Shown one piece after another: positions 7,911 through 31,718 of a stretch of DNA of 39,413 bases. Position 1 is the stretch's first letter. Every line of letters starts with the position of its first letter. The stretch is from Saccoglossus kowalevskii (lineage: Eukaryota > Hemichordata > Enteropneusta > Harrimaniidae), in the NCBI RefSeq assembly GCF_000003605.2, contig NW_003142306.1:92184-131596 (forward strand). The letters run 5' to 3'. The notes under the pieces were generated by a model, which saw only the letters and a list, made by a program, of their open reading frames with translations, searched no databases and was not told the origin of the DNA. The position numbers were made by a program, and so were the translations under genes.

Positions 7911-8060
7911 TGAATGAATGAATGCATGAATGAATGAATGAACGAATGAATGAATGAATGAACGACCGAACGAATGAATGAATGAATGAATGAATGAATG
8001 AATGAATGAATGAATGAATGAATGAATGAATGAATGAATGAATGAATGAATGAATGAATG
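7911..8060. repeat. AATG tetranucleotide microsatellite
   Basis: About 37 units of TGAA/AATG with a few interruptions (a GCATG, several AACG units). A short GT run lies just before it (about 7882-7894). The Phe-Ile-His-Ser repeat frame on the minus strand is a product of the repeat, not a gene. Confidence 0.97.
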
Positions 8061-10214: not shown

Positions 10215-10490
10215 TTTGTCATAGTGTTTGCCACATTGTTTGTCACAGTGTTTGTCACATTGTTTGTCACAGTGCTTGTCACAGTGTTTGTCACAGTGTT
10301 TGTCACAGTGTTTTTCATAGTGTTTGTCACAATGTTTGTCACAGTGTTTGTCACATTGTTTGTCACAGTGTTTGTCACAGTGTTTGTCACAATGTTTGTC
10401 ACAGTGTTTTTCATAGTGTTTTTCACAGTGTTTGTCACAATGTTTGTCATAGTGTTCGTCATAGTGTTTTTCACAGTGTTTGTCACAGTG
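10215..10490. repeat. Minisatellite: 23 copies of a 12-bp unit
   Basis: The consensus TTTGTCACAGTG is repeated 23 times over exactly 276 bp, with scattered variants (CAT for CAC, TTTTTC for TTTGTC, ATTG for AGTG). Because 12 is a multiple of three and the unit lacks stops, several frames on both strands stay open (Asp-Lys-His-Cys, Val-Phe-Val-Thr, Thr-Asn-Thr-Val). These are shadows of the repeat. It lies about 370 bp beyond the stop codon of the receptor gene. Confidence 0.97.
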
Positions 10491-10860: not shown

Positions 10861-10920
10861 CTACTTCCATGCTTGTGCGATTTTTTCTTTTGTTATGTAT
10901 TCATCTGAAACGGTGGCAAT
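10861..10920 (-). CDS. Terminal exon: C-terminus and stop
   Basis: Phase 0 in: IATVSDEYITKEKIAQAWK and TAG. The acceptor is a strong polypyrimidine tract ending in cag. The short tail is acidic to basic with no PDZ-ligand-like end. Confidence 0.88.
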   Translation of the reverse strand: MATVSDEYITKEKIAQAWK

Positions 10921-13900
10921 CTGAAAAAAAAAATAATGTAAATATTGCGTTTTCAATTTGTGAGAATGTATTACACTTTGGATATAGAGAATGAAAAATA
11001 AAAGTTTCGCAATTAAAAATTCAACGCACATAAGGCGTGAATGTCACTCCTAATAAATATACAGATAAATCAACATGTTTGAAGTTTAATCTCGAAATAG
11101 GTAATTTAATTTGTCACCTACCTTTGCACTAGTGGCAGTAGTTGATTTAGTTTCTGACGAAGAAGAATATCCTGAACTGAAGACACTCGTGCCTCTTTTT
11201 CGATGCCAGGCTGATTTCACTTCGTCGTTCATCACACAGTGAAAAATAAATACGGCAAACCCCTGTGACAGATAACATGTGTAATGTGAATCGTATGGTG
11301 CATATCCATGTATATTACCTTGATGTCTCGCAATATCAACTGCCGCTCTGATAACAGTGGAATGACGTACCACTTTAGAGCAACAACGCATAATAATGTG
11401 CAGTGTGTAGTCACTTCCATGAAGTAAAGTAGACAGTGGTTGATTTGAACGACATTGCATTCACTACATACGTCATTTTTACATCACAGACACGCTGCGT
11501 TACTAGAGGGTGCGAATTATCGGAATGACGTATTACGCAAGACATCCACTCTTATTATTATGCATGCATTATTCAAAACATGTTTGTGAATGTATGTACC
11601 ATTATATCGAAATATAATAAACTCAATGTGTATAACATGTGAACAATCAATTTATAAGATATAATAGGTCATATTTTTTAATTTCTGTATATTTATTAAA
11701 AATTTAAATTGGACTGATACAACAATCCGTTTCAGAGTACCGATCTCTCTTCCCTCCCAAAATATTACATTACATCTACGTAAATATTTGTATTTATAAT
11801 CATTATAACCTTAATCATTGACGTAGATATTTGGGACACGGGTAGCCTGGTACCAAAATAGAAACACCCCTAGTAATGTTAGCATTATATACGTCCTGCT
11901 ATATATAATAAAGTATAATTGTGTATACGTAATGTTTCTTTCACTTTACGTGTTGCGATCGAAGTTAATGTCGTTACCTGTGTTGAGTTTAGTATCACGA
12001 ACAGGTATTGGAAAAACACTGTGTGTTGACTGAATGAAAAAATTCCGAACATCCACGTCAGCCCCAATATTGGCAGAAGCAGGACACTAGCACGCAATCC
12101 AGACCTGTATTTGGAGAGACAATAGCTTACTGAAACTGCGATATGTTTAAACATACGGTTGTGTTTTACGCTCTGAACGTATTTCTTTCGCAACATTGAT
12201 TTAATTATCTGTCTGAAAAAATATTGTAAATACCAGTAACTGATCAACTTTATTCAAACTGTTGCTTATATTGCATGTCAGTTTTATGACAATGTGTACA
12301 ACATATATACTCTGCGTCTTGTGTACGATCAAGAATATATATATTATTGACGAGTAAAGACTATGGCGTACAACTGATTAAACCCACAGAATATTTGTGT
12401 GCGATATTGTATGATTTTTTTTATAACTTACTTTATTTTTTCAATTTCCGTCTTTTTTGCCGTTGCTCGGATAGTCATGAAAGCTCGCATAACGGCGATC
12501 AGTACAACACAGTTCACCTGCAAGATAAGTAAGAACATCGATCGATAAGTGTGTAATTAAACCTGTGTATGTTAATAAAATAGAGTGTTTCCCATAACGG
12601 GTTTTAAATTATCTTTATGGGGGTGTTCACCTTTAATATCACAGATCACACGTACCGTGCGAACAGGATATAGATATAACGACTTCCAATAAAAGACAAC
12701 TCTCTCTAGTTACCCAAGAAACGTATATATATATATATATATATTAATGACAACTACCATATACACCAGTCCTATAAATAGCGCCCTCTAGTGATGGCAC
12801 GCTTATGTGACGTCAAACCGACGTGTATGGGGAAGACAATGTCGACTTTGCTTAGTTTTGTTGTTCGTCACCTACAGTATAGTAAACATCTCAAAACATA
12901 ATCGCTATAGATGGACGACTAAAGATCAAAACGATAATGACGAATTGAATGGCCTTAACGTCACCAATTAGAGTCATAGAAACGCTCGCCACCAGAGGGC
13001 GTAACTTACTACGATTACGTTAAAAGACGAATGAATATTACGATGCTAAAAAATAAGTGCATCTTTTAAAGCCATACATGACATACCACTTACAAGAGTG
13101 TGCGATTTCTCTTACAAACACGGCATAGAAATTACCAACACAATAGCTTAAATTAAAAAATATTCGAAATATATCCCACACATTGTTAAACCCTGAAAAT
13201 TGATTTACAACCCCACTCAAACTAGCGTCTTCAAGACCTGTTTTAAAAATGCAATTACTTCATTATTTTGGCTTCGTTGAATGGCAGAAGAAATGGAACT
13301 CGCAGAAAGTTTAAAACATGTCCGGTTACGGCAATCATCCGGGATATGATTATGACATCCACAACAAACCGGGATAATTCTTAAGTATGGTCTTGCATTG
13401 AGTTTTACGCGTTTTATGTCGGAAACATTCCCGTAAATTGCAGTTATATCATATTAGCGATGTATTTGTCTCGGTCTATATAATGAAAGCAATATATGAT
13501 TATAACTAAATATTCAGTTCGGTTGTCACATGGGATTACGAAGTTGAACTGCACTGATTTTACTGTTGTGGCAAAATAAAAAAAAATAAATGCCGGGAAA
13601 AATGGGCTACTCACCAATATAACAAACATGGCCGGGCCAATGAATGCAAAAATATGACCGTCTCCTGTAGACAACCAACAGCTACAATATAAATTCGATA
13701 ACAAGCATTGAATTTACCAGTTGACGAATATATATTTTTACTGATCAATATATAGTTTATCTTTATCTCACTCGCTATGCAGCTCTAACAAGTAATCTGA
13801 GTTTCCACAATGCAACGCAACCTATAAGAAATGGCTAACTCAAGAATTATACATATACACTTGGCGCTAGAAATATTGTACCAATTACTCTTGCAGTTGA

Positions 13901-16900
13901 GTTCAATTGTTTCAACACTCGGTACATGTGACGAGGGTATCAAGTGCATATGATAGAAAAACAAACATTGAGACACCGCCAATTTAAAGCGGGGGAGTCG
14001 TCACCTACGCATGCGTCAGGTGGCATATCGTGTCATTGTTTACAAACAAGCTTCTACCCATGAGCCTTTGCGTTATTAGCATGTGTTGTTATCATCGCCT
14101 GGGACTCAAGTCCCACGCGTGCACAGGTGACGACCCTCCCACTTTAACGCTGAAACAACACAAAACACGCAACCCTGTTTTTAGTTGTTATACATGGAAT
14201 TCCACTCAACTGTATAAGTCATAAACAACATTTATAGAGAAAATGTGTGATTGAAACTCACTATGATGCAGTTCCATAATTCTCGAGTCCAGTTGCCATA
14301 GATACAGCTACTATTACCACTGGTGTGACGTAACCGATACAGTAAAAGGACACCAGTCTGTAACGACCATGCCAAATGTTCCGTACCTTGACGTATAATT
14401 GTATTCCCTGAGCTAGCATCCAATGGAATACAGCGAGGTAAAGGTAGTGTAGAAGAATAGCTATAAAAGTACATACTGCCTGTAGGAGGCAAATTCAAAT
14501 CCATGTTAACGTCATACATTTTTTCATAACTTGCTAAAACTGTCGTATTGTGTCTTAGGGAAACTTCTCCAGTGAAATACAGATTAATATCATTTCAGAC
14601 GAGTTATATTGTGACACGTAGTAGGCAAACTGTGAGAATACATTCTGAAACGGTTTGTGCAATTAGAGTTTTGAAACGATTTAACAAGATGTCAGATGAA
14701 CTTATTAGCGCGGACTTTACAAAATCTAATTTGCAAATATCAACAAGAAATTACCAAAAACAATTACAAATACGAACGTTTAGCTCTATGGTTATACAAG
14801 AAATCGACTATTCTGGGTGCAGCGAAAAACAAAATACTATGACAGGTGGTCATTGTATCATGGCAGCGTGTATCGTGCTGTATGGAATTCAAAACATCAT
14901 TACCGCTATATACCATGGGTAGATTGAATACATATTAAACTGACATATCGCAGTATAAAGACTGTGTACGTGACTATATTGCTACAAATTGACTACAGTT
15001 TTGCACATGGGCAGAAGTGTCTTTAACTTTTGACCTCGTAGCAGCAATACACACTTGTTTTGGGAGTCGTTTTTTTTAAATATCTGCCAAAATAAATATA
15101 TTTTGGGTATTTATAATAATTGCAAAAAGGCAAAACTGCTGACATCTGCTCCTTCTCAGATGAATTCGAATTCGTGTAAGATATCCCGGTTGAGTAATGT
15201 GCTTCATCGAATCGTTCACATGAGCAAAAACATGCTAACCTGATTATGCGCGGCGTCAGCACCTGCCAAGAACGTGATTTGGCCGGCAGCTAGTACCGCA
15301 GTGAGATTTAGTAATATCAGGAAACGTTCAGACTTTAATCTAGATTTTAAAATAAAATGAGAAGTTATTGCTTGTTAAAATGAAGTTCTCTAAATTGCAA
15401 ACATCCCCGGGCGTAATAAAAAACATCAACCTATGTATCTCAATAATTCATACACTCTTGAAAGTATTTGCTGTTACATGCACGCTCAGTTATGTGTTAA
15501 ACTCACAATAGAAACAATTTATTTTACGAGCGCAAATTGCGCACATGGGAAGGTTTATTGAGATGATTTCATACACGCGCCATTGCAGCCATTAGAAACG
15601 TGCTTCAGAGAACAATGTTTTCTCATTCCAGCATTTTTGAATCTGAGAATGGTTCATATCAGTTTACGGTTGCGTGTTTACAACAAATGTTGCATTATCA
15701 GTTGTAATAGCTAGGGCGTTGTGTTGCGGCTCGTACAGTGAATCGTACAGTGTTACAGTCCCCGACATTGGGTAAAGCTCACCTGAAGTAGATTATTGAA
15801 CCAATCGTCAGTATGATACCAAAAAGTGAAAGTGAACATCCTATATATGTTAGTACATTTAGAACGTCGTTGTGCATTTCCATACCCTGTATATAGTGGA
15901 ATACATAGTTATGTGTTAAATGTACGTAAACCGTACGATGAATTGACAGCCAGTGTGAAATAACATTTGTTGTTTCAAATGAAAAGAACAAGAAATATAC
16001 AACACAACAACTAGACCTCGCCATGAGTTGGTGCCTTGAAGTAATGATTAATAATAATGATCGGTTAATAATAAAGATGTTGACTCACTTGCACTGCCAC
16101 AGGCATCATCAATATCGCGAAATTCGTTAGATGAGACCATCGGCAGGACACGTGTGATTCTGTTGTTTCTACAATATCCGAACCGTACGTCGACCACTGG
16201 GGAGTGTCAGTCCTTTTTAAATAAAATAAACGAAAACAATATTGTTTGTGTGCAATGCCTCTAACAGAATGTTATTGGCGCTAAAATGTGTTTAATGAAA
16301 TCAATCATCGATTTGCTCTAGTAATTCAATAATTTTATTCGCATGGCTGGTTTTGGGAAATGATATGCTTGAATGGCTATCTGACATTATCACATTAATC
16401 TTACGTAATTAGTGTTGTCACATGTTCAATTTTGGGGGCGTTTCATCGACAGGAGAGATTAGGGAAAGGCGTAAGTTGTGTTAGCGCACATGTTAGCCTG
16501 TTTTACGAAAAGTGCGGGAACACTTAGTACGGGCTGTAACAAAACGCTAAGTACGGGCTACATCTGACTCGTTTTTACGACCCGGTCTCGACTCTTAATA
16601 CACGCTTAGCTCGTGCTAAACATCCAAAACACCCTTGTATTCAATGTTCATTTGGAAGATTTACTAATATATTCATAAATATGTTTTTCGGTATGCTATT
16701 TCCGACATATGGTAATCAACGCGAGCACATCCAGAGATATTATTCTCGAGAAACAATGGAATGACGATGTAATAATATGACAGAACCCCACACCCTCCCC
16801 GNNNNNNNNNNNNNNNNNNNNNNNNNNNNNNNNNNNNNNNNNNNNNNNNNNAAATAAGTGACTGCCTGAAAGTACCATTACTGTTGTTCAAATTTCATTT

Positions 16901-19900
16901 CACTCGGCAAGTATATTCATGTACGCCAAGGGGAAAATATCATACTTCTAAATATTGTTTATTTCGAAAAACTGTACTCCTGAAGGGACTACTTTGTTTG
17001 CTCGCAGACCTCATTTGCATATGGGTTGTGGAAATACCGATTTTGATTTCAGGGACGAATCAAAATAAACTGCAGTACATATGTAATAATCCCTGTTATT
17101 CTGCAATTTGTACTTTCTGAATAAGCATTGTTATAACATGTATACATTAATTACCCCCCCCCCCTCGTCATTTTAAAAATCAAGTAGCGTATTTTTCTCT
17201 ATTAAATACATATTTGTGATAGAGGCATATAAAATACATAATGGTTATTTTGGATAAGTACCTGGTTACTGTACTGAGTAATCATAGTTGATATGACTGA
17301 AGATTTGTATATTCCCAACACGTTTGGGTCCTTATTAAGCCGTGCTAACTGCGCACCCCGTGCGTAAACACAAGTGGTTCTAGCCGTTATGCAAATATAT
17401 GAGATTAGCTTAAAACCTGTATCCTGAACACGACTATACTCTCCGCTATAAATCTTCCATGTACTAATCTACCTCTTTCTTTTATTTTATTTGAATATCC
17501 AGACAACAAATATTGCCTTCTCTCTCTTTCTTTACCCCCTGAAAAATATTCCATAAATAATAACGCGTGAAACTGAAATTGTTAGTAATCACAGGTTCTT
17601 GTAGATGCGAATATATTCGTAAGAGAAAAAATCAATTCAAATTAATAGCGATCGCAGAGTTCAGTAGATAACAGGCGTATATGAATTGGCTATTATAATA
17701 ATGCTGAGTAAATGGGAATACAAAGTAGATTGTTCGAGAATTAGTTTCAAATATACACATCTTTCACACCACGACTTAACAAGTTTGACGTACACGAAAT
17801 CCGGGGGGGGGGGTTTACATACGAGCAGGTGAACGTACGCTGAAGAAATCAACTTGGAATCAACTTGATGACGTTAACGTAGAGAACACCTGCGTGCCAT
17901 AAACCAGCAAAATTGCCTTGTGGTATTTTTAATGAGTACCGGCACCGTCCTGTGATGTTTATGACGCCAATTACGAAGCAAGTATATAACGTAATAAGGA
18001 TATTTTTAATTGCCGACTTGGTGTAAGTTGAGAAATTGAGTTTTGAATCAATACTTATAGTCAGTTCATTTCTTGATGTTTTCAAATGAACACCAGGTGT
18101 TTCTATATAATTATAATTTTACCATAACCATACAAATGAGTGTATAGTTAAAAATTATACGTATTATCACTTTTTGCTGCTCCTAATTAGCATGCACAAG
18201 TGAATGTCCATACTCACCCGTAATCCAAAAAGGAGCAGAAAATCTCTTCATTGCTCTGTAAAATACCAAGAACGTTTGCAAATATATGTATTGTACGTTT
18301 ATATTGTATGCAAATAGCTCAGTTGATTAGAAACTATACTATATGATGTTGACAAATTTGACAGAGAAATAATCTTATCATTCATCAATAGTCAATTGCA
18401 TATTATTTTATACCGATATGTCGCATATCTGATGAAATAAAGACCGTCATCATACCAAAGGTGAGGTCATTATTGAAATCTGCGACGGAATATTCAAGAG
18501 TCTTAAACTACAAATGATATACATGGCAATAAACTGAATAATGCTGTGTACCTGTTTAGGAGCAATGAGTTTATGTTTCACCAATATCGGATACTCTGTA
18601 TTCACCGATCCTATTATCTTTAGACTCGGGTGTACGTGCATTGATATGACGTCACTGTTCAGCTTTGCATTGCTTGTACCTCTGGATGAATAAGCACAGG
18701 GTAAGCACTATTATGGGTTGTATTGTTATTGTTTTTTTTATTTTGCGGTTTTTGATGAGAAAAGTCAATAAATATCAATAAACTATAAACAAATTTCTGC
18801 ATGTCTACCTATTTACTCAACACCCCATCCCAATTTGTAGCTTATCTGTAGCATATTAAATTATTCAGCCATCACCAAATACACTAATAAAATTTAAAAA
18901 AATGTTTGGAAACTAATATTTCCCCGACGGTATTTTACCTTGATTGAGTGACGATGTCAGAGGTTACGTTCTCCATTAGTAAGTCGTCAACAGATTCATA
19001 TCTGGCGGCCACGATTACAAAATTGCCGTTAACCGTGCCATCAATGGCCGAGGCCGGCAACTCAATATAGGATGAGTCGTCATTGGTAGCTGAGCCATCA
19101 AATCGGTAACCTCGAAATCCGTTCTTTTCGAACACCCGAGCTTCATAGTCTAAAACGAAAAGTAAAATACAGATTGTATGTTAAATGTATGGCACGGAAT
19201 AATAGAAACGTTCGTCGCTGATCATTGACCACACAGTGTAGCTCAACACTACATATACCTGGGTCTCCCAGCTCAAAAGCATCGCCAGAGTGCGTTGTTG
19301 TATTTTTACGTTCTGTATCACCAAGACGATGCAAATGTAGAACACATTCACTGCGTCTACATGTCTCCTGCGCTAATTGGGTGTCAGCACCTCAATGAAT
19401 CTTGGCAACAGATACAGCAGACATCCGTGTGACAGATAATACACATAGTCTATGTATAAACGATCTCACTGCATTTTTTAATTATAAAAATACCACAGAA
19501 ACGCTGCTGATACGCGTACCCCGATTACTGAATAACACGATATAGCAGGTTTGATGTGTTTCTACAATGTATTTTTACAAGAATTGTTTTCTGCTGATAC
19601 GTCGCAAAATTTGAATAAATTGGTATGGTACTACTACATTGCATTCTGCCGACAATCATGAAGAAAACATATGTGCGCATTATTCGCTGTGTGACTTTGG
19701 CCTTGCTCTATTCAATTTAATCCCAGAAGCCAGTGATTATATGAGTCAATCAATTATTCAATTTGTTTGGCGATGAACTTGTCAGGAGAACTGTGGCGAC
19801 GAACTTGTCAAACGAACTGCGCTTTCTTTGTAGACCCTTCATTTGCTTCGTGTCATATGGCTAGGAAAATTCTTCACGCGAGTTTTAGTTTATTATTTTA

Positions 19901-22900
19901 CACGTTTGGTAGTATCCTTGTTCTCGTAGTTTAATAAAATAAACACTGTGAAATAAAACGCGCTGTAAATACATATTCAAATTGTTGGCACATAGCTTCA
20001 GTACGCTATGTTATATTATAAAGGATATATCTTTAATTTTGCTTCGTTTTGGCCATCTTTTATTCCCACACATTTGATAGAATTTCGTTAGTAAATATCC
20101 GAGTGATGAGGATAGAACAAGACATCAAAGAGCTTAACCGTCTGTCGCATGCATCAGTACTCAGATTTCTTTAGGCAGCGATTCTCGTGCAAAACACTGA
20201 ATTGAGACTGTCCAATATGTAACTGACATCATACATTTAACACGTGGTAGTATTGAATACCCAAGTGATAGCCTATGCCCGGGAATAAGTTATTACGTAT
20301 ACTATAGGCGGATTTCAACGTGATTTATTCGACATGTAGAAACGTACGACTGGGTGACCGTGCGAGTCACGAATCACCTGTGAACGAGCCTCACAATTAC
20401 CGATTTAATCGCACAGTACAATAACCCGTAACTAGTCTATTAAGAAAACTGTTGCATCTCACCAATGTTTTCAGTATGTGTCGTAACAGCAAATCCAGGC
20501 ATAGAGTCAATTAGAAATTCTGCGGCTTCATTCGATACAATATCTACAGTTTCCAATACTTCCAAAACACCAACCTGTATAAAAATTGAGACAAACGGTT
20601 CTTAATGATCTTTGAGCTCTGAAACAAATATAACGGTTCCTATGCTAATAATTACCCAGGTACACTGCGATAACTAGCGGTAAAATAAAACAGGTGAAAA
20701 TAAATGAAATACTTATTATACTAAGCTACACATACAGTGAGCAGCACTAATGAAGTGTTGCCTTGGTAACGAATGTATTTCATTGAGATACGGGGTGTTA
20801 ATGAACAACGCAATTTCCTTCCATCAAAGATACTGAGAAGGTATACCTCCACGTCAACAGGAAGAAAAAGTTAATGTAAATTGAATTTGTCGGTATTCAT
20901 GAAACATTTCTAATAACCGGCCATTATGGTATAATGGGAGTTACTATTTATACAATTTGAACAATTTTATTTTATGCGACTGATATGTGTTACTAGTTTC
21001 GTACGTTCATGATAATACTGTATTCCGGTATATATACCAGTAAAGCTGATGAATTTAGCATTTCAGGTGATGAGTACGCGAAGAAAATTTATACATAGTG
21101 TGCATGTGTTTTTTTTATCGTGTCACGTGACTGCGTCTGACAAATCGGATTGGCCACTTCAGAAATGCAATATATTAAATATAAAATGTGCACGACAACT
21201 CTGATTAGTAGACAGTTTTATCCATTCAAATAGAGCACCGTTAACCGAGGCGAAGGTGATGTTATTATTGATTTTTTAGGGTTGATGTCGATATAACAGT
21301 GAATGTGAGTTCTTGCACAAACCTCATGATCAAAAAGGTCTACCATATTCGCCATATCAGTATTTTATATGTTAAGCACTACAATACCTCACGTTAGTTA
21401 AAATATTAGAAGTAATTTTAATGCAGAAGTTCATTTCATTTAATTTAGGGTATTATTTCAATATTTACCGTGTATTTGATTGGGTTACAGTGTCGGTTAT
21501 TTCATAGAGAATGACTCAAACTTGTTGTCACTCCATTCCCTTCCAGCATACTTAATATTGTATTGTAAAAATACGTAGTGTTCTGCGCTGCAATTACCAA
21601 ATGAAGCATTTCACAGGAAATTGGGAACTCAGTAATAACATGACCTAGTTTTCAAATAAAGCGCTTAACCTCAGATAGAACTTTCATACTACTGTAACAC
21701 TATTTATTTTCATTGGCGTTTCATTTCACTATTTTGATGCTTTAGGCAATTTCACTGGGTTTTTTAGTTCACGACATTAGCTGGGAAACAGTGGGTACTG
21801 CCGTTATTCTACATGCTCACGTGGATTCAATTTAGCGAATTTTAGTTTTCAGTGAAAATAGCGATATTAAAAACCAGTAGATAATTAATGTGCTAACAGT
21901 ATTCGTGTGAACACTTAAATTCTCATTCAGGTAAGTTACAATTCAATTAAATTAAGTTCACTATGATGTGATCTACCTCACGACCATGATTACTCATTAA
22001 GCAATTACAGTAAAGTGAGTGTGTTACTATGGACCGAAATTATTAAATTATTTAGATGTTATATTATATATTGTTATACCGCCGCTATAATGACCAAAAC
22101 AAAACATTGAAAATGTTTTCTCATAGTATAATAAAATACATTTTATACACATATTAGCCATTCTTCCAATTTTAACTCGTATGACAACATAATGAATCGA
22201 AGCCTGGTATTGAGATATTTTACATTTCAAAACTGTTGTATTAAGTTGCACTATGATACCTGCAAGACTCTCAATATCATCTACCGTAAGTACTTAATGA
22301 GTATAATGTCAAGTAGATTCTGGGAAGTCAAGTGTTCATACGTGTCCTTTTACATATTGACATTGTGAAGTAGTCGCTAATGATCCGTAAAATTGGACAA
22401 AAGAACACTGTACGTAACCTTACTATTGAAATAACAAGAAAAAAAAGCAACGTGAATAGCTTTCAAAGGTTGTGATAAAGTTTAAATAATTTGTTTTTGA
22501 CATTTTATTCTGTTGATCTATCAGGATAATATTTTGGATGAAATAAAAGTTTTGTTTTGACAGCAAATATAGAAGTATTCTTTCCATGTACAAGCGTTAC
22601 GGATTTATGAATACGTATAAGTAATCACAATCTCATGGTTTGGTAGTTCATCAGACTAATATAGGTTTGTTAGGTTTGCTGTCAAAATAATATGTTTATT
22701 TAGAGTTATTTAATGAACAACCGTTACACCGCCGATATTGCAGAAGACATCGAGCCGAAGGCGAATCCATTGTGCAATACCAAGTGATAAACTAACTTTC
22801 ATACTTCCACCAAGGAGGTCATGTTTTTGATAGCGTTAGGTTGATGGACTCAGTCTGTCTTTTAGTAACATTAAGAAACATGTTATGGAAGGACTGCTTT

Positions 22901-25900
22901 GATATTTTTAATATGTGCGTTGCCGCCCAAAAAAGAACTATTAAATTTTGTTGGCAATTTGTATCACTGTCTGAACATGTAAGTAATTCAAAGGATTATT
23001 TATCAATGCAATACATATTTTTGAAATATGTGAATATAACTCCATAACAAAAGTGTTTGGCAATATGATTCCAATGTGTTCTATGTATATAGTTTGATCC
23101 GGAACATGTCATAATTCTGGCTACTATGAGCAGAACAATGTAAATGAGGGGAGGTGAATTTTCAGACACTGTAAGGTAACAAGTAAAGACACATGCATCC
23201 AACTAAACCTAAATTTTTGCTAAATCTGTGTCTTCGCCCAGGGAAGAAACCATTTTGGTTGATATCAGTTATATCCCGGTACTTCCATCCAGAAAAAAAC
23301 ATATCGGTGGATTTTCAAAGTGAGAAATGATACAGACATGTAACTAACACCAAATTGTAGTCAAAACTGTGCTGATTCTTTACTATATCATTCTATTCAA
23401 CGGAGTTCGTGACTCTTTATTACACACGGAGCTAGATCCGATAGTAACCCGCTATTCGAAAGAAAAAAAATTGCCAGTAACTAATGAAGGAATAGTTATA
23501 TATGATAATTCATGAACCTTGTTTCAGAATAGCGGGATTTATTCGCGGAGTTTCTTGTTAGTGGTAACATTGATACAGAGCTGTCGCAATTTACTTCAAA
23601 GAATACCGACAATAAATCGTACCCGAATGATTTTGTTTTATCAAGATCTAATACGCAAACAATTATTTAAATATACTCAAACTTTTTCACATTCCCTCTC
23701 TATTCATTTTTCATCGTGAATCCCCCCACGCTTTGTTAAAATCGACGGGTGTATTGATGCTTTCAAGTGGGATGTCGTCATATATTTGTTATTACTGTAC
23801 AACGTGGCGGGAATCTACTTTACCCTGGTGTTGAATGTAATCATATTGCTATATTTCGTTTATTTGAATTCCACTGATAGTTTATACTGAACTATTAACT
23901 GTTATTTAAAAAAAACGTATTGGCCCGAACCGATCCAATTTCAAGAATATGTAATTTAAGCCTAAATTACTTCGTAGCAAATGCGATAAATGGTGTAATT
24001 TTCATTAAGGCTAATAATTGACTGTATTTAAATGACTTTCGTGGGCATGATAACTGTAACACTGATTGGCTAAATACATGGCATTAACGCTGGTGAAATG
24101 GATTACTGTAAACATGAACATCACTCAAAACTCCCATCTCAACTTTCAGCTATCTACATTCAAATGTTTTTTCCTAATCCCGATTGCACAACTCATCCAG
24201 TCTCAGCAATCACTTTTCTTCAGTTTTTAGCTGGGAAAGTGTTGCTATGAGCTATGTCAATTGATTTATGTGTGTGGTTTTTTCCACTGCGTTCAACTGG
24301 CACGTGAATTATTGAACAATATATGGCGAAATTCTGTATGAATGATAGAAAAGACGGGCTATAACGCTAAGGCATACTCGAACTTCACAAATAGCATTAC
24401 AGTTCCTGCTCCAACCGCCGATCAATAAGTTGTTCCGCCCAGACTTTCTTCGAAAATTGTGCCCGCCTGTTGCTACCGTTTATGACGTAACAACAGTGCA
24501 CGAGCATTTGCGAAAACAGAAAGTGTAGCGCAGTCCCAAATGTATTCAGGCTGAGAGTAATCGATGCCATACATAGCAGAAAAGCCATTTGTATTGACTG
24601 GCCACTTCTGGATACACCTGGGAGTGACCTTTGTTTAGCCCCTCGTCAAATGCATCGGGAAGTGTGTGGCGGGTCTAAAACAAAACACATACACACATGC
24701 ATACTTTGAAGTCATTGATTGCGTGTTACATACATTTTTAGAAATTATTATTACCTGTATTTTTACCAAATACCACTTTGTGAATGGTATTATATCTGTG
24801 CTATGCACATTTTAGTTCATACCTGGTTCTTGCTTTGACGTTCTCTCCAGAAATATGTAAGATTACGTTTCAACAATGCGCTGCAAGATTCCAAGAGATC
24901 CTTTGCCAACAAAAGAAATGTGTATATTTAGTAGAATGTTATAAAACTAAAAAATAAATAATCAAATGTCATATACTTTGTTGCGATATATTTAATTATG
25001 TTCACAATTACTAGACTAAGTCACTTGAAATGATATCTTTCAGTGTTGCTTGACTGATTTGACTTGTACGACTTTGTATGAAATGCATTTTCGATTACAA
25101 TACAATCAAGTACAGTATGTTTAGCGTACAGACAAGGTACTCACATCTGATTACGAATGACACCATACAAACCTTGAACAATTGCTGCTGTTCAAATGGC
25201 GCATCAAGTGTGCTAATTAAACTTTCGTCATTCGCGATCACTTGTATGTTGTCCAGAATATGTTTAATTTCTTGCTCTGTAACATCTTCTCCGATAACCG
25301 ACGTTTCTTCCCGCAGTGTAGCGACCTACAACAGTAAACATACCACACAGTGTGTAAACATTACATCACCATTACCGTTTACCATCGTACATAGGAGAGC
25401 AAAAGCCGTTACTAATTTGAACAATATACGTCATATTTACGTCGTATTCTAACAATATATATTGTTTACATTGCAGTTGACATCTATATTACGCGTAACG
25501 GAATTGTTATCGCGTTACTGAACGTAAGCGAAGACGTAGATACGCATATTGTAAAGTGCTTTTTACTGGCATTCCAAATTGTTATCTCTCGAAAAATTAC
25601 AAGCAAAAACGTTGTTTAATACAAGTCGATATCAACACTGAACTGCCTTTATACATACTTCGTGATATTATCGTAATAACATCATAAAACTACACTATAT
25701 AGGTGTAAAAGGCGAGTTTGTTCACAGGATTCAGTTTGAAAGGTGTCCCATATTTGTTATTTTCTGCCAAAAATATTGTATAACTGGAATTCTACAAAAA
25801 CCTTGTTTTAACATTTCTGGACTAGAAACAAATTTTCTTTGAGCATAATCATGTCAAACTTTTCTACTTTCAATTTATGATATCCTGCTGTGTACAGCAG

Positions 25901-28900
25901 CAAATTGTTTGCTGAAGAGATGATCTTGGTTGGTGGGTAGTACTACATCAACATGTATGTAATGAATGCCGAATTTATGTACATGTTCTTGTATGTATAG
26001 TAATATAACTTTACCAAGACGATATTGTACGTGGAGAGCATTTCTTATATAATTAGATAAAGAGATCATTTTAAAGAAATAATTCCACTTGGTAAGGTAA
26101 AAATATGAAACATATTATTAGTTAGAAGGGTTTCGATCGCAGGAAAAGAAATTTCAGCATCACACAGCATTCCTTTTAAATCATTAAAACTCTAACCAGT
26201 TTAAAATGGTAGCTTTAACCACGCCGATAAAACCTTTCATTTATGTAGTCTAAAATAAAATAATTCTTTAATAATACGATTCTCGTATGTAGTTTGTCAT
26301 CGGAGGTCAATATTAATGTATATATACTTTATTTATTGTATAAGATATATATTGCATCTTAGCATATACAACCTATCGCATATGTTACCAAGGAAACAAA
26401 TAACGATTGAATGTCGACAGTAATTATTATATCATATATTAAAGCTGCTTCTTACTCTCATTTTTATAATAAAATGTCTCATCTCATGTTACCCTGAATT
26501 ATTATACATTTTAATAAAGAAAATAGATTGGTTGTTACACACGGGGTTTTGAATCACGTGGTACTGCCGCGAATCAACCATAAAGGTAGTTGGTAATTAT
26601 TTTGTTTTAATTAAAGCGGGAGGGTCGTCACCTGCGCACGCGTGGAAATTCACGCTAATGGGAAGATGCTTGTTTGTAAACAATGACACATGATGGTCAT
26701 CTGCCACATGCGCAGGTAACGACTCACCCGCTTTAATCAACAAAACAAGGTGTTTCGGGTATGGATTCATTCACCAGTGAAATATAATTTGTTTTAGTAC
26801 AGTCCTAACATTATCGACTACGGTATGTATGAGGGCGAGAATTAGCGGGATATTCTCCAATTATTCCCCTAACAGTGATTCAATTTGGATTTTCAGACAA
26901 GTGCCAATTTGTATGGAATCCGGGTTAGTCGATCAGTTCTAGACACTATGTGATTTATTTACAATCCCAACAACAACGTTTTTCAAATATGTACGAAAAC
27001 AGAATGCGCTCTGTCGCTAATGTACAATCCGGATAATTATAGAACATAGCTGTATATATAGCCACAAATCATCAATGCTGTTACTGATAACAGCAATTGC
27101 AATAGACGTGTTTTCAACACTTTTCCCTCTTGTTCGACAATGAGAAGAAGAGAACCGCCGGTACTTTCACACACAAAAACGCTGAACTATACATCAAACA
27201 ACTCGTTGACTATATTATTTCAAAATGTTTCGCCATTATACATCATTATTAAATTGTTGTTTATATAAAAAATACAGAATCTGCTCCAACTTTTGCGTAT
27301 AATTCAGTAATGGAGGAATAGAATAATCCTGTCTTAAATTCAATAAAATTTTATGAAAGATGCAATGCGATATTCACGCTCAGATAGATATACTGATATA
27401 TGAAACACCATACCTGTTCAATTAGAGAATTATATTCACGATTTGAATCAGATGTGTTGATTTGTTGACCAGATGAAGTGGTTGATGATCCTGTATTACT
27501 TTCTGAACTGGTAGATGGTACGTTTTCTGAAGTACTACCATCAAAACTGGTTGATTCTTCTGTGCATGTGGATGAAGAGGTATTTATCATTACACCCATG
27601 TCATAAATAAAAAAAGTGATAGTTCATGTAGAACAATGTGCTAATATTAATTTCAACGCAAGAGGCATAAATATTTCCGTTAAAACTTCACAAATTGTCA
27701 CAACATAAAAAGTCAAATGAAAATGAATCTTTTCAATCATTTTGATGCAAATGTTTTTAATGTCAAATCTATCACTGAAGTGTGTGTGAACATATTAATT
27801 ACAAAACGGATGGTCTAATATGCGGATTGTGTGTAGATAACTAATAGATAACTGTCAAATGTTCCAATCAAAGAATGAAACACCCACGGTCCACATTGCC
27901 TTATTGGATGAACAATTTCCCAATTTTGTTTGCATGAATGATAACGGTACTACTCAACATGAAGAGTGGCTACCTCGGGGCTCGGGGTATTTTTTGTCTT
28001 ACCTATGACGTATATCATGAATGTACACTCAGCCATATTGCCAGATGGATCGGAAGCATTATAGACAACAGGATGTTTACCAGGTGTAAAGAAGTCACCG
28101 GGACTATGACTTGAGAAAACACTAACGCTTTGAGAATTGTCCGTGGCAGAGATATCAGGCCATGTTACTTGTGTTCCATACGATAGTATGGAGTCAACAG
28201 TTTGGTCTGGTGGACATGATATGATGGGTGGTTGGTCATCTGAAATAATAATACAAATGTACATTAACTGCAATGACAATTACTATATTGCGAATTCGTC
28301 ACGTGGTGTGTATTTATTAACTGCGAAACGGAAATTAAGCTAATTAACAATTCCGAATTTTATTTATATTTAGTATTTTTAATATCACGGCCTTTGTTCG
28401 AACCCCGTCTACGTGATTTATTCTTATCACGGAGAAAATGAGTATAATTTTAATACAATTTATGAAAACAATTTAGCAGTCTAAACCGCGACAACTAATA
28501 GATCTGGTTATAGAAAGGATGTTCAGATATTTAAATGTTTTCAGAATAATATGGTTCTGAGATGTATATTATGATATATTTGTGCTAAAAATGCTCAAAC
28601 TAAACAGAAATGCAGCTACAATGACAATACAATTGCCTAATACCGACAATAATAGTAAATACTATGATGTTAGCAGCGTCGTTCGATACTGTCTTCGTGC
28701 ATACTTTCCGGTATCCTCGTAATAACCTTATTATTATACATCTTTTCCTCCCAATGATACATCATGGGAATGGCAAACTCAAACAAGTTTAGAACAGATT
28801 TAGCGAACTTATTCGCGTGAAGTCCGGTCAAACCCTAGAGGACGCTCACGCGCGTAATCTGGACTTCGCATTTCCTAATATGGTAGGATGAGAATACCCA

Positions 28901-29887
28901 GTGCGGTGACATATGTATAATAATGTGAGGTTATTACGAGGATACTGCAAAACATGCACGAAGATAGTTCAGCGGGAGTATCGAGCGACGCGTATCGCAC
29001 AACTTTTTAACCCAGGAATACATCATGGAAATGCCGAAATTACGACAAGCTGTAATTTATGGCGGTGAGAGATGTATAATAATTCGTATTATAATTTGTT
29101 TATAATTTGTTGCATTGTTCCCATGTATTTCAACAGGTACTAAGTATGCTACTATACCAACATATACACCGTCACCATATACGAATACGGTAGTGCATAT
29201 ATCGTACCAATGTTTATTAATTTTGTCTTGTTTTCTTCATTCATGGTTCGCATTTTTCACATCTACCATTTTATTTTGAGTAAATGCCGAAAGGAAATTG
29301 GATGATTCGGTTTAGATTAATGTTAATGATGGTTGTTGCGTTGTCAAAAGTTCGTAAGATTAGTTTGGGTCGTGTCGAATTTTGTGCTGGTTATATATTA
29401 ATACAAATGATGTGAAAGTATTCGATTTTTGTAGTCGTGTTTGTTTGATTGCACCCAATTTGCAAAGCAATTGCCATAAATAGAAGACAAACTGAAATGC
29501 AATTTAGCAATAAATACTAATATATTTTACCCATTAACAAATAATGAAGACGTCACAGTTCCTATCACTTCTCATTTTTGTGTATCTTAGCTACTGTAAC
29601 AACATCACTATAGAGGGATGAGATCGTCGGGTGAAACTATTTTCACTTACCTAAGACTTCAATAGTGAATTCACAGCTTGCACCAGGCATGCCAGTAGAG
29701 CTCATCTCCTGGTACATTAGAGTATGTATGCCGATGCTGAAGAAATCTCCACTACCTAGGTTCGAGTTCAGCGTAAGTACTATGTTTGGATCGCTGCTAA
29801 CGGGTAATGTCCATTGTATTATTGCACCAGCTTCATCCACATCGGCTGTTGCAGTTATCGCATTTGGACAGGTTAAACCAGATGTTA
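10861..29887 (-). CDS. HYR-domain adhesion G protein-coupled receptor (17 exons, 5' incomplete)
   Basis: A cell-surface receptor with a large ectodomain that is expected to cut itself at the GPS and signal through G proteins by its tethered agonist. The model joins 17 exons: 29651-29887, 28003-28239, 27414-27559, 25173-25325, 20463-20574, 18939-19140, 18552-18654, 18218-18255, 16089-16212, 15783-15886, 15240-15339, 14262-14479, 13615-13681, 12432-12517, 11978-12104, 11122-11262, 10861-10920. All use GT-AG and all phases agree, giving 750 residues and a TAG stop. Residues are numbered from the first full codon. Domains: HYR 1-78, HYR 80-157, Ser/Thr-rich stalk about 159-200, GAIN about 205-436, cleavage Leu437^Thr438, seven helices about 455-700, tail to 750. 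The HYR modules usually mediate adhesion. Start codon, signal peptide and any further N-terminal domains were not found. The ligand is unknown, and the subfamily within adhesion GPCRs is not assigned. Confidence 0.93.
11122..11262 (-). CDS. Exon: end of TM7 and proximal tail
   Basis: Phase 0-0: GFAVFIFHCVMNDEVKSAWH, RKRGTSVFSSGYSSSSE, TKSTTATSAK. GF.VFIFHC...EVK..W is the family's TM7/helix 8 junction. It is followed by a Ser/Thr cluster that could be a phosphorylation and arrestin site. Donor AAAG|gtaggt. Confidence 0.97.
11264..11977. other. Intron between the TM7 and tail exons and the TM6-7 exon
   Basis: Non-coding intron of the receptor gene. It is AT-rich and holds no structured element that I can see. 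Confidence 0.8.
11978..12104 (-). CDS. Exon: transmembrane helices 6 and 7
   Basis: Phase 2 in, phase 0 out: SGLRASVLLLPILGLTWMFG, IFSFSQHTVFFQYLFVILNS, TQ. It carries the LLLP.LGLTW.FG signature of TM6 and FQYLF.ILNS.Q of TM7. Acceptor ctccaaatacag, donor ACAG|gtaacg. Confidence 0.97.
12432..12517 (-). CDS. Exon: rest of TM5 and third intracellular loop
   Basis: Phase 0 in, phase 2 out: VNCVVLIAVMRAFMTIRATA, KKTEIEKI. It completes TM5 (FVIL-VNCVVLIAVMR) and gives a short basic loop. Acceptor ttatcttgcag, donor TAAA|gtaagt. Confidence 0.95.
12724..12745. repeat. AT dinucleotide microsatellite
   Basis: An uninterrupted TA run of about 11 units in the intron upstream (by gene orientation) of the TM5/ICL3 exon. 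Confidence 0.9.
13615..13681 (-). CDS. Exon: second extracellular loop and start of TM5
   Basis: Phase 2 in, phase 0 out: CWLSTGDGHIFAFIGPAMFV, IL. This is the highly conserved CWLS..DG.I..FIGP block of adhesion GPCRs. Acceptor atttatattgtag, donor ATTG|gtgagt. Confidence 0.97.
13984..14147. mobile_element. MITE family A, copy 1 (in a receptor intron)
   Basis: The ends TTAAAGCGGGGGAGTCGTC and (inverted) TTAAAGTGGGAGGGTCGTC face each other, with TTAA at both edges (13984-13987 and 14144-14147). The inside shares GTGTCATTGTTTACAAACAA with the copy at 26611-26736, which is in the opposite orientation. It has no ORF. TTAA edges suggest a piggyBac-type target, but the family is not proved. It lies in the intron between the TM3-4 and ECL2 exons. 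Confidence 0.88.
14262..14479 (-). CDS. Exon: transmembrane helices 3 and 4
   Basis: Phase 0 in, phase 2 out. TM3: AVCTFIAILLHYLYLAVFHW, MLAQGIQLYVKV. Linker RNIWHGRYRLVSF. TM4: YCIGYVTPVVIVAVSMATG, then LENYGTAS. The Cys in AVC pairs in the family with the Cys of CWLS in the next exon. Glu of the usual WML.EG is Gln here. Acceptor tttgcctcctacag, donor CATA|gtgagt. Confidence 0.96.
14480..15239. other. Intron between the TM2 and TM3-4 exons
   Basis: Non-coding. The + strand open frame of 124 codons here has no recognisable domain and I do not treat it as a gene. Confidence 0.7.
15240..15339 (-). CDS. Exon: transmembrane helix 2
   Basis: Phase 2 in, phase 0 out: LKSERFLILLNLTAVLAAGQ, ITFLAGADAAHNQ. 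It corresponds to the family's L..K.L.L.L..A...F..G helix and following loop. Acceptor aaaatctag, donor TCAG|gttagc. Confidence 0.95.
15783..15886 (-). CDS. Exon: transmembrane helix 1
   Basis: Phase 0 in, phase 2 out: GMEMHNDVLNVLTYIGCSLS, then LFGIILTIGSIIYF. It has the adhesion GPCR TM1 signature H..VL..LTYIGC.LSL. Acceptor ccactatatacag, donor TCAG|gtgagc. Confidence 0.96.
16089..16212 (-). CDS. Exon: GPS cleavage site and tethered agonist
   Basis: Phase 2 in, phase 0 out: TDTPQWSTYGSDIVETTESH, VSCRWSHLTNFAILM, MPVAVQ. The cleavage motif His436-Leu437^Thr438 is intact and is followed by TNFAILM, nearly the latrophilin agonist sequence. The second Trp (415) and Cys3 (432) are present. The position of Cys2 after YG holds Ser420, and Cys4 in C-x-C-x-HLT is Trp434. 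The acceptor must be the weak ttatttaaaaag|G at 16213. The nearer CCCCAG 16 bases on would break the frame. Confidence 0.93.
16213..18217. other. Intron inside the GPS, with an assembly gap
   Basis: An intron of about 2 kb between the 38-bp exon and the cleavage exon. It holds the N gap, an 11-bp C run near 17155 and a G run near 17803. No extra exon is needed here, since the phases of its two flanks match directly. Confidence 0.8.
16802..16851. other. Assembly gap of 50 N
   Basis: Fifty N bases, probably a gap of arbitrary length. It follows CCCCACACCCTCCCCG, a C-rich stretch that may have stopped sequencing. It falls in an intron and does not interrupt the receptor's coding frame. Confidence 0.99.
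18218..18255 (-). CDS. Exon (38 bp): first Cys of the GPS
   Basis: A 38-bp exon, phase 0 in and phase 2 out, reading SNEEIFCSFLDY plus a split Gly. It supplies GPS Cys1 (residue 403) in C-S-F-L, where the family has C-x-F-W, so the first conserved Trp is Leu (TTG for TGG). Acceptor ggtattttacag and donor CGG|gtgagt are both good. Confidence 0.87.
18552..18654 (-). CDS. Exon: GAIN subdomain B, second part
   Basis: Phase 2 in, phase 0 out. With the preceding split Ser it reads SDVISMHVHPSLKIIGSVNT, then EYPILVKHKLIAPKQ. It corresponds to the L-S-x-V-I-S-V-x-V strand and the PV.I...H segment that precedes the GPS. Acceptor agctgaacag, donor ACAG|gtacac. Confidence 0.93.
18939..19140 (-). CDS. 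Exon: GAIN subdomain B, first part
   Basis: Phase 1 in, phase 2 out: RVFEKNGFRGYRFDGSATND, SSYIELPASAIDG, NGNFVIVAARYESVDDLL and MENVTSDIVTQS. The pattern F....-I.LP..A........ with V...Y.....L is typical of the beta-rich GAIN-B half. It has one N-glycosylation sequon (NVT). Acceptor gactatgaag. Confidence 0.93.
20463..20574 (-). CDS. Exon: GAIN subdomain A, second part
   Basis: Phase 0 in, phase 1 out: VGVLEVLETVDIVSNEAAEF, LIDSMPGFAVTTHTENI. The pattern L..V..I........F..S.......T.NI leads to the VFEK.GF strand in the next exon, as in other GAIN domains. Confidence 0.9.
20575..25172. other. 4.6-kb intron within GAIN subdomain A
   Basis: AT-rich intron with no supported exon. A stretch at 21.7-21.9 kb contains CACTGGGTTTTTTAG and GAATTTTAGTTTTCAGTGAAA and may be a decayed relative of the 4584-4799 element, but clear terminal repeats are lacking. 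Confidence 0.6.
25173..25325 (-). CDS. Exon: GAIN subdomain A, first part
   Basis: Phase 0-0, 51 codons: VATLREETSVIGEDVTEQEI, KHILDNIQVIANDES and LISTLDAPFEQQQLFK. This is the amphipathic helical part of the GAIN domain. The donor AAG|gtttgt is weaker than the others in the gene. Confidence 0.88.
25326..27413. other. Intron between the stalk exon and GAIN-A
   Basis: Non-coding intron of the receptor gene. It holds MITE family A copy 2 and otherwise nothing recognised. Confidence 0.75.
26611..26736. mobile_element. MITE family A, copy 2 (in a receptor intron)
   Basis: The left end TTAAAGCGGGAGGGTCGTCA and the right end, read in inverse, TTAAAGCGGGTGAGTCGTTA are bounded by TTAA at 26611-26614 and 26733-26736. 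It has the same interior as the 13984 copy in reverse orientation, about 38 bp shorter. Confidence 0.9.
27414..27559 (-). CDS. Exon: Ser/Thr-rich stalk
   Basis: Phase 1 in, phase 0 out. It reads ESTSFDGSTSENVPS, then SSESNTGSSTTSSGQQINTS, ending NREYNSLIEQ. It is strongly Ser/Thr-rich, so probably O-glycosylated, and has an Asn-Thr-Ser sequon. The last residues begin the helical GAIN-A subdomain (EYNSLIEQ joins VATLREETS). Acceptor ccacatgcacag, donor ACAG|gtatgg. Confidence 0.88.
28003..28239 (-). CDS. Exon: second HYR domain
   Basis: Phase 1-1, 237 bp. It is a canonical HYR module: DQPPIISCPPDQTVD, VTWPDISATDNS, then PGDFFTPGKHPVVYNASD and PSGNMAECTFMIYVI. The two Cys, W, TDN, the G..F..G...V.Y strand and the D.SGN.A.C signature are all present. 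Acceptor attatttcag, donor ATAG|gtaaga. Confidence 0.94.
28676..28991. mobile_element. 316-bp element with long terminal inverted repeats
   Basis: The left end GCGTCGTTCGATACTGTCTT continues with CGTGCAT and GGTATCCTCGTAATAACCT. The right end carries the inverse: AGGTTATTACGAGGATAC, ATGCACGAAGATAG and GTATCGAGCGACGC. The arms are about 65-75 bp with small indels, around a centre of about 170 bp with no ORF. It sits in the intron between the two HYR exons. Superfamily unknown. Confidence 0.88.
29651..29887 (-). CDS. Exon: first HYR domain
   Basis: Phase 1 in, phase 1 out, 237 bp. It reads VTSGLTCPNAITATADVDEA and continues with IIQWTLPVSSD, GSGDFFSIGIHTLMY and SCEFTIEVL. The HYR pattern is visible: CP near the start, W..P, G..F..G...V.Y, and a second Cys in C.F...V. 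The usual A.D.SGN loop is replaced by QEMSSTGMPGA, so it is the more diverged of the two. Acceptor atatttacag, donor TTAG|gtaagt. Confidence 0.88.
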
Positions 29888-30280: not shown

Positions 30281-31718
30281 GTATTTATTTAAATTGTGAG
30301 TAATGCCGCCCATACTTACAGTGCAGGGTAGAACTGCAAACAATGTACACACTAATTACCCGTGTGAGCAGACAAACCTGAATACAAACAATAGCAATAC
30401 AATTAGTTTGCATTGTGTTATTATGTCCACTTTCATTACCAAATATATATACAAGACAAGGGATATTCTTATATACTTTACTCCAGTGGGTTGACCTGTG
30501 ACAACTGACCTTAAATTAGTACATTCATTGGTGCACAACGACGTCGGATTGCTCATTTATTTGAAATTGGAAAAACAAGTCACGCTTTTTTGCATTTAGA
30601 CTTACACACATTCTACGGGTTAAATATTGGTCTGTAATGTACACGTATTGTAAGTGCACTGTGCATGTTATAACTTACAACACATACATTATCTAATAAC
30701 GTAGATATAGGATCTTACGGTAAGTTTTGCAAAAGGAATACCTGATGGCTAATTTAAATATTGTCGTTTTTGACTATTGAAAGCACTTCATGTATTTTTA
30801 ACTTCAGTCACGTTAATGACCTGTGATTCGCACTAGATGGCATTACGCTTTGTTTTGTTTTGTTTTTTATCTACTTGTTTAATAGCTACGTACAAATAAA
30901 TGCAGACATGTCACCGAGAATCTGTTGGACGGTTTGACAGGCTATAATTAGATCAATAAAGCAGAGATACAACCAGAAAAACACATAATAAACGTAGAAG
31001 CAGAATCCACAGATTGTAAAATCACCTTTGGGTTGACCAAAAAAGTAGCCTAAATGTAAGCTCACAAATGATTCATAGGTTATTATAATACGCTTTAAGT
31101 TAGTAACTCTGGAAGAATGTCTGCATCACTGATGATTTTTTAACTTGTTTTCCCATGTTGCTACCTTACACTGAGTATACATTGCGCATTACTTGTTGTT
31201 AATTATTACAATTGGCGATACTAAAATTTTGATATGTCATATGTCTGATTTTACTTCCCTAAAACTGTTTTTTTTTAGTTCAATGTAGTAATGAAATGTA
31301 ACAAACTATGGAAATAGACAGAACATTTTCTTTACGTCAGTGATTCGATAAATTAATTGTTGTGCACAGAATTGTGAATAATGAACACGAAGCTACAAAC
31401 ACCCAAATTAATTAGGGACAAAAATATTATATGCAACAAAATCCGAAATCCCACAATCGCACTACCAACGAAACACAGTTCGCAAGAGATAAAATAAGAA
31501 TGAAATACTAATTTAGATTTGCGCGAGATATATGTGTCTCATATAAACAAAGTTATCGACCTTGACTAGGGACGTTACCAAGCTTAAATTAGGTGTTATT
31601 TTAGGTGATGTGAAGGTATTGAAGGAGTCGCCGCTCAGGTCAAACCTCATACTTGTGATTTCCATTAGAAGAGCGCATTGGATTGTGAGAAAATCAATTT
31701 TTGTTAACACAAAGGTCG

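Follow-up and report, generated by a model that had tools for sequence, protein, structure and literature searches.

A tandem pair of adhesion G protein-coupled receptors with HYR modules and a reduced GPS in Saccoglossus kowalevskii

It is an open question how the GAIN domain of adhesion G protein-coupled receptors (GPCRs) retains its tethered agonist and then frees it; the two disulfides beside the cut site are thought to stabilize this domain. A receptor gene in a 39,413-nucleotide stretch of the Saccoglossus kowalevskii genome (contig NW_003142306.1, positions 92,184 to 131,596; hereafter the window) brings this question into focus. Its predicted product carries two HYR modules in front of GAIN, GPS, and seven-transmembrane (7TM) domains, and both the gene and its tandem paralog lack one cysteine pair of the GPS. 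Does such a GAIN domain still cut itself, and how would it let go of its agonist? With relatives that keep both disulfides encoded in the same genome, a natural receptor pair that lacks one of the two offers a ready-made comparison. What is new here is the unusual HYR sensor and the missing disulfide common to the duplicate, set on a known adhesion GPCR core.

Gene structure, domains, and tandem paralog

The window is part of a 719 kb contig in a 572 Mb assembly, and the receptor gene lies on its minus strand. Rederived from the sequence, the 17 exons of the original prediction have outer coordinates of 29887-29651 down to 10920-10861. The acceptor AG precedes all 17 exons, the donor GT is present at 16/16 internal sites, and the exon phases fit, giving a joined frame that is open over 762 residues and then ends in TAG. 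Introns reach 4.2 kb. While these ends, splice sites, phases, and frame held up, the model had missed one internal exon and had no start, as its first exon begins mid-exon without an ATG. The missed exon (24900-24823, 78 nucleotides, between the earlier exons 4 and 5) was found by translated comparison (tblastx) with the paralog, which matches at the equivalent place. It encodes DLLESCSALLKRNLTYFWRERQSKNQ in the window gene versus DLIESCGFLLQLPLAEMWKDRQKKNK in the paralog, has AG/GT borders in both, and is in phase 0-0, so that the frame was unbroken without it. The coding exons are as follows.

29651..29887, minus strand: HYR module 1; phase 1-1, Pfam HYR 36.9 bits
28003..28239, minus strand: HYR module 2; phase 1-1, Pfam HYR 57.9 bits
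27414..27559, minus strand: Ser/Thr-rich linker, 49 residues; splice model, unrecognized in the paralog
25173..25325, minus strand: GAIN subdomain A; splice model, paralog, Pfam
24823..24900, minus strand: added exon, helix of GAIN subdomain A; phase 0-0, paralog match, AG/GT borders, gain in GAIN score
20463..20574, minus strand: GAIN; splice model, paralog
18939..19149, minus strand: GAIN subdomain B; splice model, paralog, Pfam
18552..18681, minus strand: GAIN subdomain B; splice model, paralog
18218..18255, minus strand: start of GPS with cysteine 1 and Phe (CSF); splice model, paralog
16089..16212, minus strand: rest of GPS, cut site, and TNFAILM; splice model, Pfam, alignment with ADGRD1 and ADGRL3 chains
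15783..15886, minus strand: transmembrane helix (TM) 1; splice model, Pfam, paralog
15240..15339, minus strand: TM2; splice model, Pfam, paralog
14262..14479, minus strand: TM3-TM4; splice model, Pfam, 7TM profile search, paralog
13615..13681, minus strand: Cys of extracellular loop 2 and TM5; splice model, Pfam, assigned by alignment
12432..12517, minus strand: end of TM5 and intracellular loop 3; splice model, Pfam
11978..12104, minus strand: TM6 and start of TM7; splice model, Pfam, 7TM profile search
11122..11262, minus strand: end of TM7, helix 8, and Ser/Thr-rich tail; splice model, Pfam
10861..10920, minus strand: last exon with TAG stop; splice model

Profile searches bore out the domain assignment that had been made by eye, with HYR, GAIN, GPS, and 7tm_2 all scoring over their Pfam cut-offs. 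In the 762-residue protein, HYR was found in two stretches (88.5 bits, 3.7e-25), GAIN at 40.9 bits (2e-10; cut-off 26.5), GPS at 32.0 bits (1.8e-7; cut-off 22.5), and 7tm_2 at 166.7 bits (7.1e-49), covering profile positions 3-250 of 250. Scanned singly, HYR1 with the candidate leader described below in front of it (4.7e-9) and HYR2 (1.3e-15) each exceed the cut-off of 21.7 bits for Pfam HYR (PF02494). Addition of the missed exon raised the GAIN match from 40.9 to 57.4 bits and extended it from profile positions 102-210 to 6-210 (of 210). The resulting 788-residue model, whose N-terminal end is provisional, contains nothing beyond HYR, GAIN, GPS, and 7tm_2 at E ≤0.1 in Pfam. Given the GAIN domain, the GPS with HLT, the secretin-like 7TM, and the tethered agonist, the predicted protein belongs to the adhesion GPCRs (class B2), and profiles, splice structure, and paralog alike support the proposal of such a receptor with two HYR modules. 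A Ser/Thr stalk had also been proposed; a Ser/Thr-rich exon does exist, but it encodes a short linker of 49 residues (22 Ser/Thr, 8 acidic, 1 Pro). The ectodomain model without leader contains seven cysteines, at positions 6 and 71 (HYR1), 87 and 150 (HYR2), 263, and 441 and 470 (GPS). Cys263, numbered on the 788-residue model, lies in the added exon of GAIN subdomain A and has no evident partner; a Cys stands at the matching place in the paralog.

The tandem paralog (C3325:69111-58796), on the same contig and strand, has HYR1, HYR2, GAIN exons, GPS, and TM1-TM4. Compared over window exons E1-E12 of the 17-exon model, i.e., through TM4, 11 of the 12 are collinear in it, with lengths that are equal modulo 3 and in all cases equal or nearly so; one paralog donor is GC. 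The two proteins are identical at 299/546 residues, the nonsynonymous divergence (dN) is 0.355, and the synonymous divergence (dS) was not computable (Nei-Gojobori gave -1 and YN00 no value), which we read as saturation of synonymous sites between the paralogs. Because the paralog is both collinear and diverged, it confirms the exon model without transcripts. The gene is real: its Pfam scores are far beyond chance, and its exons are repeated in the tandem paralog.

The GPS and its missing cysteine pair

The GPS of the window gene reads CSFLDYG...WSTYGSDIVETTESHVSCRWSHL up to the predicted cut and TNFAILM after it, and that of the paralog reads CAYLDFG...WSTVGSNIIDQTDLYITCQWSHL followed by the same TNFAILM. 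In both, GPS cysteine 2, after Gly, is replaced by Ser and cysteine 4 by Trp, while cysteines 1 and 3 are kept. Aligned with the ADGRD1 and ADGRL3 chains, the window gene has G-S in place of G-C and C-R-W in place of C-x-C before HLT. GPS cysteines pair 1-3 and 2-4, and four cysteines forming two disulfides in GAIN subdomain B are usual for adhesion GPCRs, although they do not formally define them. With cysteines 2 and 4 both lost, one GPS disulfide would be missing whole, and neither the window gene nor its paralog has the usual four cysteines. Both GPS disulfides anchor one end at the motif CxCxHL/T, with the slash marking the cut, according to a passage in PMC13197933. Sequencing error at the two positions was considered and rejected because the substitutions are identical in the paralog.

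The loss appears unusual within this genome. Among 11 GPS motifs read there, cysteines 2 and 4 are present in nine (C3325:35.5 kb, C2221, C4305, C3985, C410, C3976, two on C1303, and C1055) and absent only in the window gene and its paralog, a count to which other cysteine substitutions could add, as they could escape the search patterns. For the window and a first set of loci, cysteine 3 had to be C and cysteine 4 either C or W; for a second set, cysteine 3 could be C or W and cysteine 4 any of C, W, S, and Y. Cysteine 2 was left free in both. The second set comprised 15 short stretches, four of which gave a GPS, ten no match, and one a chance match.

The cut site itself is intact. HL/TNFAILMMPV is identical in the window gene and its paralog, and the window gene retains both His and Thr of HLT, the Gly that precedes the lost cysteine 2, and, two residues after cysteine 1, a Phe. 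A His-Phe-Gly geometry has been tied to GAIN cleavage (a passage in PMC13062082), and we infer that the Phe two after cysteine 1 is the Phe of that triad.

Cleavage, agonist release, and alternative explanations

We consider it probable that the gene encodes a self-cleaving adhesion GPCR with a tethered agonist, an HYR sensor, and a GAIN domain that lacks one GPS disulfide. This explanation starts from what is observed, namely the gene structure, the domains, the paralog, the missing cysteines, and the intact HLT and agonist; it adds to these self-cleavage, the type of ligand, the force threshold, and G-protein signaling, as set out conditionally here. The two HYR modules, with one Cys pair each, would probably bind a partner, either in the matrix or on an adjacent cell, and we infer a cell-contact role for them. 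A short Ser/Thr linker would connect them to a complete GAIN domain, which most likely cuts itself at HL/T while the outer fragment remains attached. A ligand or a pull may then strip the outer fragment, upon which TNFAILMMP would fold into the seven-helix bundle and activate a G protein. With one disulfide gone from the strands that must peel off, the cut region may unfold more easily and under less force. A further proposal, which we think unlikely, is that the tandem pair dropped the second GPS disulfide, which is almost universal elsewhere, as a unit while HLT and the agonist stayed fixed, giving a GAIN domain "softened" for low-force release from an HYR contact, possibly with Cys263 cross-linking two receptors.

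Cleavage is favored because the window gene keeps the His, Thr, and Gly and has a Phe two after cysteine 1, and the main alternative is a receptor that stays whole. There, the missing disulfide would disable self-cleavage and the tethered agonist would be exposed reversibly from an intact chain. We hold this to be somewhat unlikely. It gains from the fact that the missing disulfide begins at the very Gly-Cys step that, through its geometry, places the catalytic His and from the description of reversible agonist release as a signaling mode of uncleaved receptors (both in passages of PMC13062082), but the His and Thr of HLT are kept in both paralogs although synonymous sites appear saturated, and had cutting been lost, nothing would hold the His in place. 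Several observations nevertheless weigh against the self-cleaving, HYR-sensing receptor that we prefer. The paralog has Tyr instead of Phe two residues after cysteine 1; a Tyr is also noted in human E3 (PMC13062082). In the worm receptor LAT-1, a mutation that upsets the disulfide pattern predicted for the GPS abolished both activity and surface expression (a passage in PMC3776922), and by analogy folding or cleavage could suffer when a GPS disulfide is lost; as a counterweight, the loss seen in these sequences is paired and is common to a diverged duplicate. Divergence is higher in the HYR modules (dN 0.51) than in the remainder of the protein (0.30), and the E3 Ser/Thr linker was not found in the paralog by a scan that ranks the window's own stalk best. 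Ligand binding by HYR is putative, and HYR2 had no match at E ≤10 among solved chains.

The start of the gene bears on a different alternative. A scan for first exons over 9.5 kb upstream (ATG to donor, at least 40 nucleotides, donor score at least 2) returned 12 candidates, and the following features were noted.

30320..30413, minus strand: candidate first coding exon with hydrophobic leader MQTNCIAIVCIQVCLLTRVISVYIVCSSTLH and phase 1 donor; upstream scan
30468..30475, minus strand: TATA-like box TATATAAG, candidate promoter element; read in the sequence

The leader at 30413-30320 has the top hydropathy of the 12, tied with a shorter candidate that shares its ATG, and it is the only one in phase 1, the phase that exon 1 needs; the TATA-like box precedes its ATG by 55 bases. 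A second hydrophobic frame, in phase 2, overlaps it with a score almost as high. The exon is therefore best regarded as an unproven candidate for the first coding exon. In the alternative explanation, the receptor would be larger, with more HYR or other exons upstream of 29887, and this candidate would be noncoding. The weak points of the leader, which are an Arg inside its hydrophobic stretch and a middling donor (score 2.9), speak for such a larger receptor, as does the absence of a similar leader from the paralog, whose top candidate in phase 1 encodes a peptide that is shorter and unlike it. However, this paralog candidate lies 0.8 kb upstream of HYR1, its donor is strong (8.7), and it ranks second of 10 by hydropathy (4/10 being in phase 1). 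Moreover, despite the 9.5 kb available upstream, a profile of eight HYR modules from the same genome found only the two known HYR exons among the window's 964 open frames of at least 25 residues (next match, E 0.54). We therefore judge a larger receptor quite unlikely. Much more improbable still is a pseudogene or chimera, in which exons of neighboring genes or of a decayed copy would have been joined by eye. Introns of up to 4.2 kb and an exon model built from genomic sequence leave some room for it, but the frame is open, the phases match, and the collinear paralog differs by a dN of 0.355 with dS too high to compute; we rejected this explanation on the conservation of exons and coding sequence in the paralog.

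Related receptors and the rest of the window

The HYR module is abundant in this genome. A PF02494 search gave 226 candidates, and all 150 of those that were scored proved to be matches; the window's two HYR modules are not among them. On contigs C165, C1189, and C1892, HYR matches form long series, often with equal scores and in most cases spaced by about 0.4 to 0.5 kb, as in a hyalin-like gene. HYR exons lie upstream of at least three of seven receptors (the window gene, the paralog, C3325:29-35 kb, C2221, C4305, C3985, and C410), namely the window gene, the paralog, and C2221; the count is a lower bound, as the upstream DNA covered was partial for the window gene, C3325:29-35 kb, C2221, and C4305. 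The C2221 receptor (1183-1173 kb; 1183212-1173106) has, on one strand, three HYR exons seen upstream of GPS and class B 7TM exons, which from strand and distance probably form one gene. It is like the window gene in placing HYR exons upstream of GPS and class B 7TM but unlike it in having three of them, in keeping GPS cysteines 2 to 4, and in its H-T-T cleavage site. A PF00002 profile search also found other class B 7TM exons that share the contig and strand of the window gene. In the TM3-4 exon, identity to the window gene is 72% for the paralog, 51% for C410 (the next of five other receptors from this genome), 42% for ADGRL3, and 34% for ADGRD1. Class B 7TM domains in one frame of 669 to 1093 residues, apparently intronless there, were seen at C644, C2607, C3372, C221, C4658, and C2445; the GPS pattern was not found within about 0.6 kb upstream.

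Among solved chains, those nearest to the 762-residue protein are ADGRL3 (7wy5_R, 2.9e-64) and ADGRD1 (8x9s_R, 1.4e-63), the latter of which we take to be human ADGRD1 (GPR133). For GPS and 7TM alone, ADGRD1 is the best match (4e-60), and the scores of 207 bits for ADGRD1, 192 for ADGRL3, 162 for ADGRL2, 153 for ADGRE5, 118 for ADGRG6, and 116 for ADGRF1 give a rough ranking, as chain lengths differ. ADGRD1 shares the identical agonist start TNFAILM and the Leu after the GPS Phe (CSFL in the window gene, CAFL in ADGRD1), but it keeps GPS cysteines 2 and 4. The N terminus of ADGRD1 is a pentraxin-like domain rather than HYR, and this hallmark of the ADGRD subfamily was not found in the 788-residue model in the Pfam search described above. 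ADGRL3 (latrophilin 3) has the same GAIN-GPS-7TM order and an overall similarity about equal to that of ADGRD1, but all four of its GPS cysteines are kept; its outer domains are lectin, olfactomedin, and HormR.

The HYR module is itself known from other proteins. Hyalin is an HYR-containing extracellular protein, and to our knowledge neither hyalin nor SRPX2 nor HycP is a seven-helix receptor. In other invertebrates, unconfirmed automatic database annotations combine HYR with GPS and 7tm_2. SRPX2 is listed with HYR (in a passage of PMC11788884) and the Clostridium protein HycP with 23 hyaline repeats (PMC3723904), and both share the Pfam module PF02494 with the window gene. Like the latter, amphioxus adhesion GPCRs have extracellular domains foreign to their mammalian counterparts; Somatomedin B, Kringle, C-type lectin, SRCR, LDLa, Ig I-set, CUB, and TNFR are the added domains named, and neither HYR nor hyalin was found in the text of that paper, figures aside (PMC2246102). 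The original prediction held that HYR is absent from human adhesion GPCRs, and this agrees with a 2026 review of the family, in the first 300,000 of whose 412,533 characters neither "HYR" nor "hyalin" was found. The HYR sensor is thus a module for which no report on human adhesion GPCRs was found in these sources. At the level of titles and abstracts, the literature searches made here yielded no adhesion GPCR with HYR modules, although PMC12716839, the only paper found to contain both terms, may mention HYR on such receptors in its full text. In PMC6626334, "HYR" denotes the hyrax.

In the window as a whole, no Rfam families or tRNAs were found. An open frame on the plus strand (64-387) had no Pfam match at E ≤5; it presumably resembles the tail of a non-LTR (long terminal repeat) retrotransposon protein. 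A TGAA tetranucleotide array of 37.5 copies occupies 7911-8060, and just downstream of the last receptor exon lies a minisatellite (10215-10490) made of 23 copies of the 12-base unit TTTGTCACAGTG, in which several frames are open.

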